From NCBI RefSeq assembly GCF_030846775.1, contig NZ_CP132910.1, forward strand, positions 1,398,001 through 1,462,000: 64,000 nt of DNA. Direction: 5' to 3'. Below, in pieces: positions 24,428-27,461 of the stretch. Position 1 is the stretch's first letter. Each line of letters starts with the position of its first letter. This stretch comes from Geothrix sp. 21YS21S-2. Lineage in GTDB: Bacteria; Acidobacteriota; Holophagae; Holophagales; Holophagaceae. The notes under the pieces were generated by a model. That model worked only from the letters and a program-made list of their open reading frames with translations, ran no database searches and was not told the DNA's origin. The position numbers and the translations under genes were made by a program.

Positions 24428-25426
24428 ATGACTAAGATCGGGATCAACGGGTTCGGGCGAATCGGCCGGATGGTGTTTCGCGCGGCCGTGAAACATTTTC
24501 CGGACCTGGAGATCGTGGGGATCAACGATCTCCTCGAGCCCGAGTACCTCGCCTACATGCTCCAGTACGACTCCGTGCATGGCCGCTTCCAGGGCGAAAT
24601 CAAGGTCGACGGGAACACCCTCGTGGTCAACGGCAGGAAGATCCGCCTCACCCAGGAGAAGGATCCCGCGAACCTCAAGTGGAACGAGGTGGGGGCGGAG
24701 ATCGTCATCGAGTCCACGGGCCTGTTCCTGGACAAGGAGACCGCCAGCGCGCACCTGAAGGCCGGCGCCAGCAAGGTCATCCTCAGCGCCCCCTCGAAGG
24801 ACGACACCCCCATGTTCGTCTACGGCGTCAACCACGATTCCTACGACGGCCAGGCAATCATCTCCAACGCCAGCTGCACCACCAACTGCCTGGCCCCCGT
24901 GGCCAAGGTGCTGCACGATTCCTTCGGCATCAAGCGCGGCCTCATGACCACCGTGCACGCCGCCACCGCCACCCAGAAGACCGTCGACGGCCCCTCCAAG
25001 AAGGACTGGCGCGGGGGCCGCGGCATCCTGGAGAACATCATCCCCAGCTCCACCGGCGCCGCCAAGGCCGTGGGCAAGGTCATCCCCTCCCTCAACAAGA
25101 AGCTCACGGGCATGGCCTTCCGCGTGCCCACCTCCGACGTCTCGGTGGTGGACCTCACCTGCGAACTGGAAAAGCCCGCGAGCATGGAGGACATCTGCAA
25201 GGCCATGAAGGCCGCCGCCGACGGCCCCCTCAAGGGCGTCCTGGCCTACACCACCGACAAGGTCGTCTCCACGGACTTCCGGGGCGAGAGCTGCACCTCC
25301 ACCTTCGACGCCGACGCGAGCATCGTGCTGGATCCCACCTTCGTGAAGGTGGTCGCCTGGTACGACAACGAGTGGGGCTATTCCTGCAAGGTGCTGGAGA
25401 TGGCCAAGGTCGTCGCGAAGAAGTAG
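24428..25426 (+). CDS. gap: Glyceraldehyde-3-phosphate dehydrogenase, type I
   Basis: This NAD-dependent enzyme converts glyceraldehyde-3-phosphate to 1,3-bisphosphoglycerate. The 332-aa protein is canonical: [18 protein letters not shown] at the start, the active-site [12 protein letters not shown] with the catalytic Cys, [20 protein letters not shown] with the catalytic His, and the end motif [17 protein letters not shown] 24428 has AGGAGG upstream. It is the first of three tandem GAPDH-family genes and the only one with every canonical motif, so it is the likely glycolytic enzyme. A strong hairpin separates it from the second copy. Confidence 0.97.
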
Positions 25427-25445
25427 GCCGCTGACGGGACCGGAT

Positions 25446-25476
25446 GAGAGCCGGCGGGAACCCCCTGCCGGCTCTC
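25446..25476 (+). terminator. 10-bp stem hairpin between gap and second GAPDH-like gene
   Basis: GAGAGCCGGC (25446-25455) pairs perfectly with GCCGGCTCTC (25467-25476) across an 11-nt loop, 20 nt after the gap stop. There is no clear T-tract. It may reduce read-through into the two paralogues or protect the gap message. Confidence 0.55.
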
Positions 25477-25494
25477 CCCATTCTGGGGAATCGA

Positions 25495-26469
25495 ATGCGC
25501 ATCGCCATCAACGGTCTGGGCCGCATCGGACGCCAGGTGCTGCGCCGGATCCACCTGGAACCGGGCCTTGAGCTCGTGGGGGTGAACGACCCCGCCGACG
25601 CCGCCACCCTGGCCCACCTGGTGACCTACGACTCCGTGCACGGGAAGGCGCCCTTCCCCGTCGCCGCCGGGGACGGGCACCTCCTCCTGGACGGCCTGCG
25701 GGTGCCCCTGTCCGCGGCCGTGGACCCCTCCCTGACCCCCTTCGGCGACCTGGGCGCCGAGGTGGTGCTGGAGTGCTCGGGGCGCTTCACCCGCCGCGCG
25801 CAGGCCGCGGGGCACCTGCGCGGCTCCGTCCGCCACGTGGTCATCAGCGCCCCGTCCCCGGATGCCGACGCCACGGTCGTCGTGGGCGTGAACAGGTCCC
25901 GGGAGGCGGTGCTCAGCGCGGCATGCCCCGCCACCCACGCCCTGGCCCACCTGGTGCGGGCCCTGGACGGCGCCTTCGGCGTGGAGGCCGGCCTTGCCAC
26001 GGCCGTGGAGAGCTACGGAAACGACCAGCGCATCCTGGACCTGCCCCACCCCGATCTGCGCATGGCGCGGGCCGCGAGCATGAGCATGATCCCCGCGCCC
26101 TCGGAGGCCGCCCGGTGCCTGGGCGAGGTGCTGCCGTGGACCCTGGGCCGGTTCGACGCCCTGGCCGTGCGGGTCCCCACCCCGGACGTGAGCATCGTCG
26201 ACCTGGGCGTGCGCCTGGGCAGGGATGCGGACCTGGAGTCCGTCCACGCCGCCATCCGTGGCGCCGCCGCCGCCCGCCCCGGCCTGGTGGAGATCCTGGA
26301 GGCCCCCCTGGTGAGCGTGGACCTGCGCGGCCGCGAGGCGAGCTGCATCCTGGACCCGTACCTCACCCGCGTCCACGCCCCCCGCTTCGTGAAGGTCTTC
26401 GCCTGGTACGACAACGAGACCGCCTACGCCGCGCGCCTGCGGGACCTCTGCCTGGAGCTGGCCCGATGA
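25495..26469 (+). CDS. GAPDH-family paralogue lacking the catalytic His
   Basis: The 324-aa protein keeps the family framework: INGLGRIGRQVLRRIHLEPG, HVVISAPSPDADATVVVGVN, ALAVRVPTPDVSIVDLGVRL and KVFAWYDNETAYAARL. The active site is altered. SNASCTTN is replaced by LSAACPATHALA, keeping a Cys but losing the TTN. The region of the catalytic His ([10 protein letters not shown]) reads TAVESYGNDQRILDLPHPDL, with Glu in the His position. It therefore probably lacks normal phosphorylating activity. DQRILDLPHPDLRMARAA resembles erythrose-4-phosphate dehydrogenase more than GAPDH. Its stop overlaps the next start (ATGA, 26466-26469). Confidence 0.85.
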   Translation: MRIAINGLGRIGRQVLRRIHLEPGLELVGVNDPADAATLAHLVTYDSVHGKAPFPVAAGDGHLLLDGLRVPLSAAVDPSLTPFGDLGAEVVLECSGRFTRRAQAAGHLRGSVRHVVISAPSPDADATVVVGVNRSREAVLSAACPATHALAHLVRALDGAFGVEAGLATAVESYGNDQRILDLPHPDLRMARAASMSMIPAPSEAARCLGEVLPWTLGRFDALAVRVPTPDVSIVDLGVRLGRDADLESVHAAIRGAAAARPGLVEILEAPLVSVDLRGREASCILDPYLTRVHAPRFVKVFAWYDNETAYAARLRDLCLELAR

Positions 26470-27461
26470 TCGCCATCAACGGACTCGGACGCATCGGAAG
26501 GCTGGCCGCGCGCCGCCTGGCCCTGCAGCGCCCCCACCGCCTCTGCGCCCTGAACGACCCCGCCGACCTGGAGACCGTGGTGCATCTCCTGCGCTTCGAC
26601 TCCATCCACGGGGACGACCATCCCGTGGTGCTCGGCCTTCGCAAGGGCGACCAGGACTTCCTCGTCATGGAGGGCAAGGAGTATCCCCTCTTCCACGAGA
26701 CCGACCCCGCCCGGATCCCCTTCGGCGCCCACCGCGCGCGCGTGGTCGTGGAGGCCTCGGGCCGCTTCGCCACGCGGGAGGGCGCCGCCCGGCACCTGCA
26801 GGGCCCCGTGCGCCACGTGGTCATCTCGGCCCCGAGCCCCGACGCCGATTTCACCGTGATCCACCCCTTCAACGGCCACCTCCTGGATCCGGAGCGCCAC
26901 CGGGTCATCTCCAACGCCAGCTGCACCGCCCACGCCACGGCCCCCATCCTGGACGTCCTGGAGAAGGCCTTCGGCCTGGAGAGCGCCAGCATGAGCACGG
27001 TCCACGTGGCCACCAACGACCAGCGCCTCCTGGACCTCCCCCACAAGGACCTGCGCCGCGCCCGGGCCGCCTTCATGAGCATCATCCCCACCACCAGCAG
27101 CGCCTTCGGCGCCCTGCGGGCCGCCCTGCCCCACCTGCCGGCGGGCTTCGACGGCTGGGCCCTGCGCGTGCCCTGCCTCAACGTCAACCTCGTCGACCTC
27201 ACCGCCATCCTGTCCCGGGACGTCACTTCCGAAGAACTGAACGACGCCTTCGACGAGGCTTCCCGCGTGCGCCTCCGGGGCATCCTCGCCGTGAGCGAGG
27301 GCGGCCTGGTGAGCCGGGACTTCACCGGCCGGGAGGAGAGCGTGGTCATGGACCCGGACCTCACCCGCGTGGTGGGCGGGCGCATGGTGAAGGTCTGCGG
27401 CTGGCACGACAACGAGGTGGCCTACGCGGCGAGGCTCTGCGAGCTCGTGATCCGGCTCTAG
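26466..27461 (+). CDS. GAPDH/erythrose-4-phosphate dehydrogenase-like protein
   Basis: The 331-aa protein is closer to the second copy than to canonical GAPDH, but retains the catalytic Cys (SNASCTAHATAP) and His (STVHVATNDQRLLDLPHKDL). The Cys motif has AH instead of TN, and the end motif is WHDNE rather than WYDNE. The NDQ-LLD-HKDLRRARAA pattern matches Epd-type enzymes, which make 4-phosphoerythronate for vitamin B6. PdxJ of that route is encoded at 40298. An Epd role is thus plausible but unproven. It starts within the stop of the previous gene and ends on CTAG, which also holds the stop of the convergent hydrolase gene. Confidence 0.85.
   Translation: MIAINGLGRIGRLAARRLALQRPHRLCALNDPADLETVVHLLRFDSIHGDDHPVVLGLRKGDQDFLVMEGKEYPLFHETDPARIPFGAHRARVVVEASGRFATREGAARHLQGPVRHVVISAPSPDADFTVIHPFNGHLLDPERHRVISNASCTAHATAPILDVLEKAFGLESASMSTVHVATNDQRLLDLPHKDLRRARAAFMSIIPTTSSAFGALRAALPHLPAGFDGWALRVPCLNVNLVDLTAILSRDVTSEELNDAFDEASRVRLRGILAVSEGGLVSRDFTGREESVVMDPDLTRVVGGRMVKVCGWHDNEVAYAARLCELVIRL

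Follow-up and report, generated by a model that had tools for sequence, protein, structure and literature searches.

A GAPDH-like gene that has repeatedly lost its catalytic residues stays beside a conserved paralog in Holophagaceae

Three genes of the glyceraldehyde-3-phosphate dehydrogenase (GAPDH) family lie head to tail in the genome of Geothrix sp. 21YS21S-2, within the 64,000-nucleotide stretch analyzed here (contig NZ_CP132910.1, positions 1,398,001 to 1,462,000; hereafter, the window). We refer to them as copy 1, a canonical GapA-type GAPDH (24428..25426, + strand); copy 2, a paralog that lacks the catalytic Cys/His pair (25495..26469, + strand, 324 residues); and copy 3, a divergent paralog that keeps it (26466..27461, + strand, 331 residues). 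Across the 77 genomes of the family that we surveyed, neither copy 2 nor copy 3 was found without the other, and copy 2 has lost one or both catalytic residues (a state that we call dead, as opposed to live) in many of these genomes. The best explanation, which we favor with moderate confidence, is that dead copy 2, after GapA took over glycolysis, serves catalytic copy 3 as a prozyme-like scaffold within a hetero-oligomer of the two. A preliminary description of this DNA had raised such a pairing of a pseudoenzyme with an enzyme as an idea. That idea, which is still a prediction from sequence, has been strengthened by the co-occurrence of the two genes, the repeated loss, the purifying selection on dead copies, and the retention of their S-loop.

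The active site of copy 2

Residue numbers follow the Bacillus stearothermophilus enzyme, and all except Cys149 are what we take to be the conventional numbers. The position of Cys149 was anchored on 1nq5, the C149S mutant of that GAPDH. When aligned to 1nq5, copy 2 of the window has Pro at position 149 and a Cys one residue earlier, at 148, and Glu replaces His176. The preliminary description had copy 2 keeping the Cys and carrying Glu for the His; the Glu is indeed there, but the statement on the Cys was misleading, as that residue sits at 148. The Pi-site stretch reads IPAPSE, compared to IPTSTG in live copies, while Arg231, Asn313, the Rossmann motif, and the S-loop are retained. Both residues are also lost in the three other genomes of the window genus with a readable copy 2 (G001, G002, and L065, a contig of G004). 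A sequencing error was consequently rejected as a candidate explanation, since the loss is common to these relatives.

Structures of copies 2 and 3 were predicted as single-chain models. The copy 2 model has a predicted local distance difference test (pLDDT) score of 91.6, is confident except at S-loop residues 176-185, and resembles GAPDH structures with a Z of 43.5. The corresponding values for copy 3 are 91.9 and 41.2. Among the best 50 matches per model, the fold searches returned only GAPDH or GAPDH-like entries, which was uninformative as to substrate. Both proteins end as an ordinary GAPDH does, with no C-terminal extension in either. In the curated GAPDH-I model TIGR01534 (cut-off 367.2), copy 1 scores 451.5 bits, and copies 2 and 3 score 278.9 and 302.9 bits, both under the cut-off.

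Co-occurrence of copies 2 and 3

A scan of named genomes gave 50 loci. One from Saccharomonospora, at 38% identity, was set aside, and 49 were kept as family, mostly titled Holophagaceae or Geothrix, with several titled Acidobacteria and one Bacillota. Copy 2 lies directly upstream of copy 3 in 49/49 loci, two of them cut by contig ends, and in 45 of the 49 the copy 2 stop is at most 16 nt from the first aligned copy 3 codon or overlaps it (the exceptions are L063, L067, L092, and L094). In the window, the overlap amounts to four bases, ATGA at 26466-26469, as had been described. The survey of related genomes that had been suggested as a check gave the same picture. Copy 3 was present in 58 of the 77 family genomes, with copy 2 upstream in all 58 (56 whole; in G003 and in the genome of L073 it is cut by a contig end), and neither gene was found in the remaining 19. 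Fourteen of these pair-less genomes match live copy 2 at no more than 47% identity, at GapA sites (in G117 also at a longer GAPDH), and five have no match. Only eight of the 19 reach a completeness of 90% or more with little contamination, so single absences are weak.

Copy 1 had been called canonical, and it does carry SNASCTTN and TTVHA, with Cys149 and His176 both present. It groups with E. coli GapA (support 100/100). A match to copy 1 of at least 75% identity was found in 52 of the 77 family genomes, in seven of these as fragments only, and in none of 137 sampled Acidobacteriota genomes outside the family, where the best match reached 57% identity. Among the sampled Acidobacteriota, the GapA type is seen in Holophagaceae only; judged from this distribution, the simplest reading is that the family probably acquired copy 1 from outside. 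In the window genus, copy 1 lies inside the native gap locus, while in genus g4, to which named Geothrix genomes belong, GapA lies elsewhere (e.g., in G120 and G134, each of one contig). The pair is held by all 20 of the GAPDH-bearing genomes without GapA and by 38 of the 52 with it.

Repeated catalytic loss in copy 2

The active site was scored in 53 aligned copy-2 sequences (rows), taken from 47 of the 49 loci plus the window, G001, G002, G008, G030, and G035. Near-duplicates remain among them: G008 is close to L084, and L078 equals L079. Copy 2 is dead in 24 of the 53 rows. Where no GapA was found, it keeps both Cys149 and His176 in 18/19 rows; where GapA is present, it keeps both in 11/34 and has lost one or both in 23/34. 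The tie between the presence of GapA and catalytic loss in copy 2 is suggestive. The substitutions are varied, with Cys replaced by G, S, D, A, or P and His by E, N, or Q. Among the 23 dead rows counted, Cys149 was lost in 22 and His176 in six. Mapped on the copy-3 tree, the dead state requires at least seven changes if regain is allowed and forms nine maximal all-dead clades. Within one such clade, L063 keeps the Cys and L085 keeps the His, so the number of losses may exceed nine.

Selection on dead copies and the S-loop

To estimate the ratio of nonsynonymous to synonymous substitution rates (dN/dS), pairs that share a loss were chosen so that most of their divergence should postdate it. The dN/dS of dead copy 2 was 0.18-0.27 in all six pairs, with 95% upper bounds of at most 0.39. 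For copy 3, the same six pairs gave 0.14-0.22, and nine pairs of live copy 2 gave 0.02-0.20. Dead copies 2 stay under purifying selection. The reading frame is open in all dead rows, at 322-338 residues. Live copies and outgroups share 118 conserved columns, of which the 23 dead copies retain 84% on average, whereas Cys149 is retained in 4%. Gly9, Arg10, Asp32, Arg231, Asn313, L187, and P188 are each retained in at least 95% of dead copies, and the last two, which belong to the S-loop, in 23/23.

The S-loop is where a subunit without catalysis could still matter. In the GAPDH tetramer, this loop is reported to form an interface and to help bind the cofactor; for one enzyme, the same source describes a contact between the adenine ribose and residue 188 of the neighboring subunit (PMC9287727). 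The R interface is likewise described as comprising NAD-contacting residues and the S-loop (PMC5119734). Copy 3 has lost L187 in 19 of the 24 rows with a dead copy 2 and in six of the 29 where copy 2 is live (Fisher p 2.7e-5, computed on rows). With L187 and P188 kept in dead copy 2 and L187 often lost from copy 3, the pattern fits a reciprocal exchange of S-loops between the two proteins.

These data also bear on whether copy 2 is a subunit of copy 3 at all. It may instead have a separate new function, such as sensing of NAD, binding of RNA or protein, or some other chemistry, which in the window genus could perhaps work through Cys148. We regard this as unlikely, though worth keeping in view. 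The Rossmann-motif residues and Asn313 are retained at the level given above, so NAD binding may persist, and a Cys at 148 is found in four dead rows, those of the window genus. However, the active-site changes differ by clade, as would be expected of loss more than of a single new chemistry, and a separate function leaves the co-occurrence with copy 3 unexplained. We consider it improbable that copy 2 is a pseudogene in decay that persists for the time being through its operon position and translational coupling to copy 3. The tight spacing of the two genes would suit such a history, as would the catalytic loss mostly where GapA makes copy 2 redundant and a dN/dS above that of most live copies. 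A pseudogene is nevertheless disfavored by the low dN/dS after loss in six of six pairs, by the intact frames of all dead rows, and by the retention of conserved columns and of L187 and P188.

Copy 3 and the origin of the pair

Copy 3 retains Cys149, His176, and Arg231 in 55/55 rows. Its signature is NASCTAHATAP / STVHVxTNDQR / IPTTSSA / GWHDNE, in line with the Cys, His, CTAH, and WHDNE that had been read from the window, and its changes relative to type I GAPDH are CTAH, T208S, G209S, and Y311H. These flank the catalytic Cys and the phosphate site, which suggests an altered substrate. The Asn-Asp of the NAD-binding fold is kept, and the cofactor would accordingly be NAD, as we infer from sequence. 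The reaction is probably an NAD-dependent oxidation of an aldehyde, likely of a sugar phosphate.

Copies 2 and 3 form one clade in two smaller trees that include live copies 2 only (support 100/99 and 100/100), and the grouping rests on these careful trees rather than on a quick tree of 113 rows. This supports the duplication followed by divergence that had been proposed from shared stretches of sequence, with the native glycolytic gap gene of the Holophagaceae lineage as the one that was copied in tandem.

The same preliminary description had likened copies 2 and 3 to erythrose-4-phosphate dehydrogenase (Epd) and suggested that they feed PdxJ. If copy 3 were an Epd, copy 2 could be its by-product or its partner; to this explanation we assign only a slim chance. 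In its favor, pdxJ lies in the window (40307..41005), approximately 13 kb from copy 3, and within approximately 10 kb of the pair in G014, G015, G022, and G028 (genera g10 and g11), and PdxJ is matched in 75 of the 77 family genomes. The active site of copy 3 is also intact but altered. However, copies 2 and 3 score 231-232 bits with the Epd model (copy 3 has 231.3 on TIGR01532, cut-off 530.55), far under its cut-off, and a PdxJ match is still present in 18 of the 19 pair-less genomes. In the tree with GAPDH and Epd references that had been recommended, a clade of copy 3 with E. coli Epd was rejected by the approximately unbiased (AU) test (p 0.025), while a clade of copies 2, 3, and Epd was compatible with the data (AU p 0.25), in a test that used one reference, E. 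coli Epd, on a long branch. The NDQR-LDLPH-DLR-ARAA segments offered as a mark of Epd turn out to be the S-loop of the B. stearothermophilus-type GAPDH, and E. coli Epd has HDQQVIDAYHPD there. We therefore rejected a role as Epd as the leading reading. Copy 3 is unlikely to be Epd, although oxidation of erythrose 4-phosphate by copy 3 would be biochemically possible.

Proposed mechanism and evidence against it

We propose the following course of events. The native gap gene would have duplicated in tandem, giving copies 2 and 3. By its sequence, copy 3 is now a dehydrogenase-like protein in its own right, under strong conservation and with the Cys/His site intact. Once GapA took over glycolytic catalysis, copy 2 would have been freed from catalysis but not from a structural duty. 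It could then lose its catalytic residues in different ways by clade, while staying intact beside copy 3. The two proteins would form a hetero-oligomer, probably an A2B2 tetramer, with copy 3 as the catalytic subunit and copy 2 supplying interfaces, notably the S-loop that would reach into the NAD site of its neighbor.

Several observations weigh against this scaffold model. The pair was not found in 14 genomes that bear GapA, so its function looks dispensable. The His is still present in 17 of the 23 dead rows counted, and full inactivity there consequently rests on the missing Cys. After relatedness is taken into account, the link between GapA and a dead copy 2 comes down to five supported contrasts, with 2.4 in the same direction and 0.1 in the opposite one (median sign-test p 0.5, not significant). 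The L187 link comes down to the same five supported contrasts, with 2.1 in the same direction and 0.0 in the other, and is not significant either; moreover, L187 is still present in five rows of copy 3 whose copy 2 is dead, including that of the window, and absent from six whose copy 2 is live. Pairs of dead copy 2 evolve faster than most live pairs. In the quick 113-row tree, which includes dead copies, the five outgroup sequences fell within copies 2, adjacent to long branches. Finally, L095 (G101) has a dead copy 2 in a genome where nothing but the pair, and no GapA, was found. That genome is a metagenome-assembled one of approximately 530 contigs. In its sisters L096 and L097, GapA adjoins a GAPDH-like gene of greater length, so the absence of a single contig would account for the case.

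Comparison with known systems

Copies 2 and 3 are like type I phosphorylating GAPDH (B. stearothermophilus 1gd1; TIGR01534) in fold, in length, and at most conserved positions. Cys149 and His176 of that enzyme are also present in copy 1 and in live copies 2, while copy 2 of the window has neither, copy 3 carries the changes listed above, and both fall under the family cut-off. Like copy 3, Epd is a GAPDH paralog with Cys and His, but copy 3 groups apart from E. coli Epd and is without its S-loop sequence.

In chloroplast GapB, regulatory cysteines sit in a C-terminal extension that has a regulatory role, and GapA and GapB are both catalytic. Together, they are described as an A2B2 GAPDH (PMC11025378), i.e., a hetero-oligomer of two GAPDH paralogs of the kind proposed here for copies 2 and 3. 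Unlike GapA/GapB, the Holophagaceae pair has one dead subunit and no extension on either. That copy 3 is a regulatory subunit, modulating copy 2 in its GAPDH activity in the way GapB modulates GapA, is the least probable of the explanations: although the tandem arrangement, the tight spacing, and the catalytic pair kept by copy 2 in 18/19 rows without GapA would suit it, copy 3 has a full catalytic pair and no C-terminal extension, and no GAPDH activity of copy 2 is expected in the 24/53 rows where it is dead. A further precedent for assembly is the entry 2vyn, described as a heterotetramer of E. coli and rat sperm GAPDH, which indicates that distant GAPDHs can physically co-assemble.

The scaffold role that we favor for copy 2 resembles that of the prozymes of trypanosomatids. 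The trypanosome deoxyhypusine synthase, an NAD-dependent, tetrameric enzyme, is reported to be activated 3000-fold by a dead paralog (PMC3663545), and S-adenosylmethionine decarboxylase and its prozyme are described as another such pair (PMC5201418). As these reports present them, a gene duplication likewise left a dead paralog that was retained along with a living one. Three features of a prozyme-type pair are found in copies 2 and 3 as well: the partners are paralogous, one has no catalytic residues, and the dead one is conserved by selection. Two more, a physical hetero-oligomer and activation of the catalytic partner by the dead one, are predictions for copies 2 and 3. The trypanosomatid pairs, however, are eukaryotic and were, according to the same sources, shown biochemically (with the deoxyhypusine synthase genes on separate chromosomes), whereas the Holophagaceae pair is bacterial, in tandem, and of the GAPDH fold, and its interaction is a predicted one.

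GAPDH tandems with an altered member are not confined to Holophagaceae. From the 137 Acidobacteriota genomes outside the family, we selected 17 (L134-L140 and L147-L156; nine family codes) with a GAPDH directly downstream of an altered one; some of these are near relatives (L150 and L152; L153-L156). The downstream GAPDH is canonical and keeps Cys and His in 17/17, while the altered upstream one has lost Cys149 in 9/17, His176 in 4/17, and Arg231 in 14/17. At least one further genome, G248, has the same layout. Since CTAH is shared, copy 3 was considered as an ortholog of the altered upstream GAPDH and rejected as such: a single clade of copy 3 and seven upstream members was incompatible with the data (AU p 4e-59). 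With this separate origin, tandems of GAPDH and altered GAPDH arose at least twice in Acidobacteriota.

Tentatively, and with slightly less than even confidence, we extend the scaffold model to a bacterial GAPDH prozyme system, in which acquisition of a foreign GapA would repeatedly have turned a retired glycolytic enzyme into an obligate, non-catalytic partner subunit for a new dehydrogenase; the second, independent tandem would then mark GAPDH as prone to such a fate. We found no paper on Holophagaceae GAPDH in the open PubMed Central literature (closed literature lies outside that search). A dead paralog beside a living enzyme is a known kind of arrangement, and its bacterial, tandem, recurrent GAPDH version is new as far as that search reaches. 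If the model is true, the family offers a natural experiment, repeated in approximately nine clades, in which an essential tetrameric enzyme turned into a pseudoenzyme subunit once catalysis had passed elsewhere. It would allow structural duties of GAPDH residues to be told apart from catalytic ones, would offer genomes with live and dead partners that could be compared directly, and would point to copy 3 as an uncharacterized dehydrogenase assigned to GAPDH by general models. It would also warn that some of the gap copies counted in such genomes may be something other than glycolytic enzymes.

Gene neighborhood and other observations

The head-to-tail arrangement of the three genes, as first described, was borne out by open reading frames (ORFs) on the + strand with checked boundaries and by matches of each to both Pfam domains, Gp_dh_N and Gp_dh_C. 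Directly upstream of the cluster lies a gene for a 74-residue Fis-family helix-turn-helix protein (24143..24367, + strand; Pfam HTH_8, 55.1 bits), preceded by a divergently oriented pyruvate kinase gene (22580..24031, - strand; Pfam PK 292.6 bits and PK_C 88.3). Among the 30 loci compared, with the window counted, pyruvate kinase is divergently upstream in 26, and a small Fis-family protein precedes the gap genes in 16; the latter count may miss some, as the comparison used an ORF threshold of 70 residues. Given these recurrent neighbors, the copy 2/3 locus looks like the native glycolytic gap locus. Downstream neighbors vary by clade, and the gene neighborhood in these 30 loci gave no clue to the substrate of copy 3.

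Between copies 1 and 2, a GC-rich hairpin of 13 pairs, one of them G-U, lies at 25446..25476 (+ strand; folding z-score -2.87) without a T run. Promoter and terminator scans called nothing, and no terminator was called at this hairpin. The hairpin-bearing stretches of G002 and G001 have folding z-scores of -3.99 and -2.83, with stem and loop letters that differ somewhat from those of the window. The hairpin is perhaps an element of mRNA processing or of expression balance.

Within the family, three small genomes of genus g8 (G012, G020, and G027; 0.9-1.2 Mb) have a PdxJ match and no GAPDH match. The window genome, a single contig of 5.25 Mb, encodes a fourth GAPDH homolog (L004; G000:C1:4166570-4167568) in a 530-residue open frame whose N-terminal part is longer; this homolog keeps the Cys and His. 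In G102 and G103, a gene similar to it in size and identity adjoins GapA.

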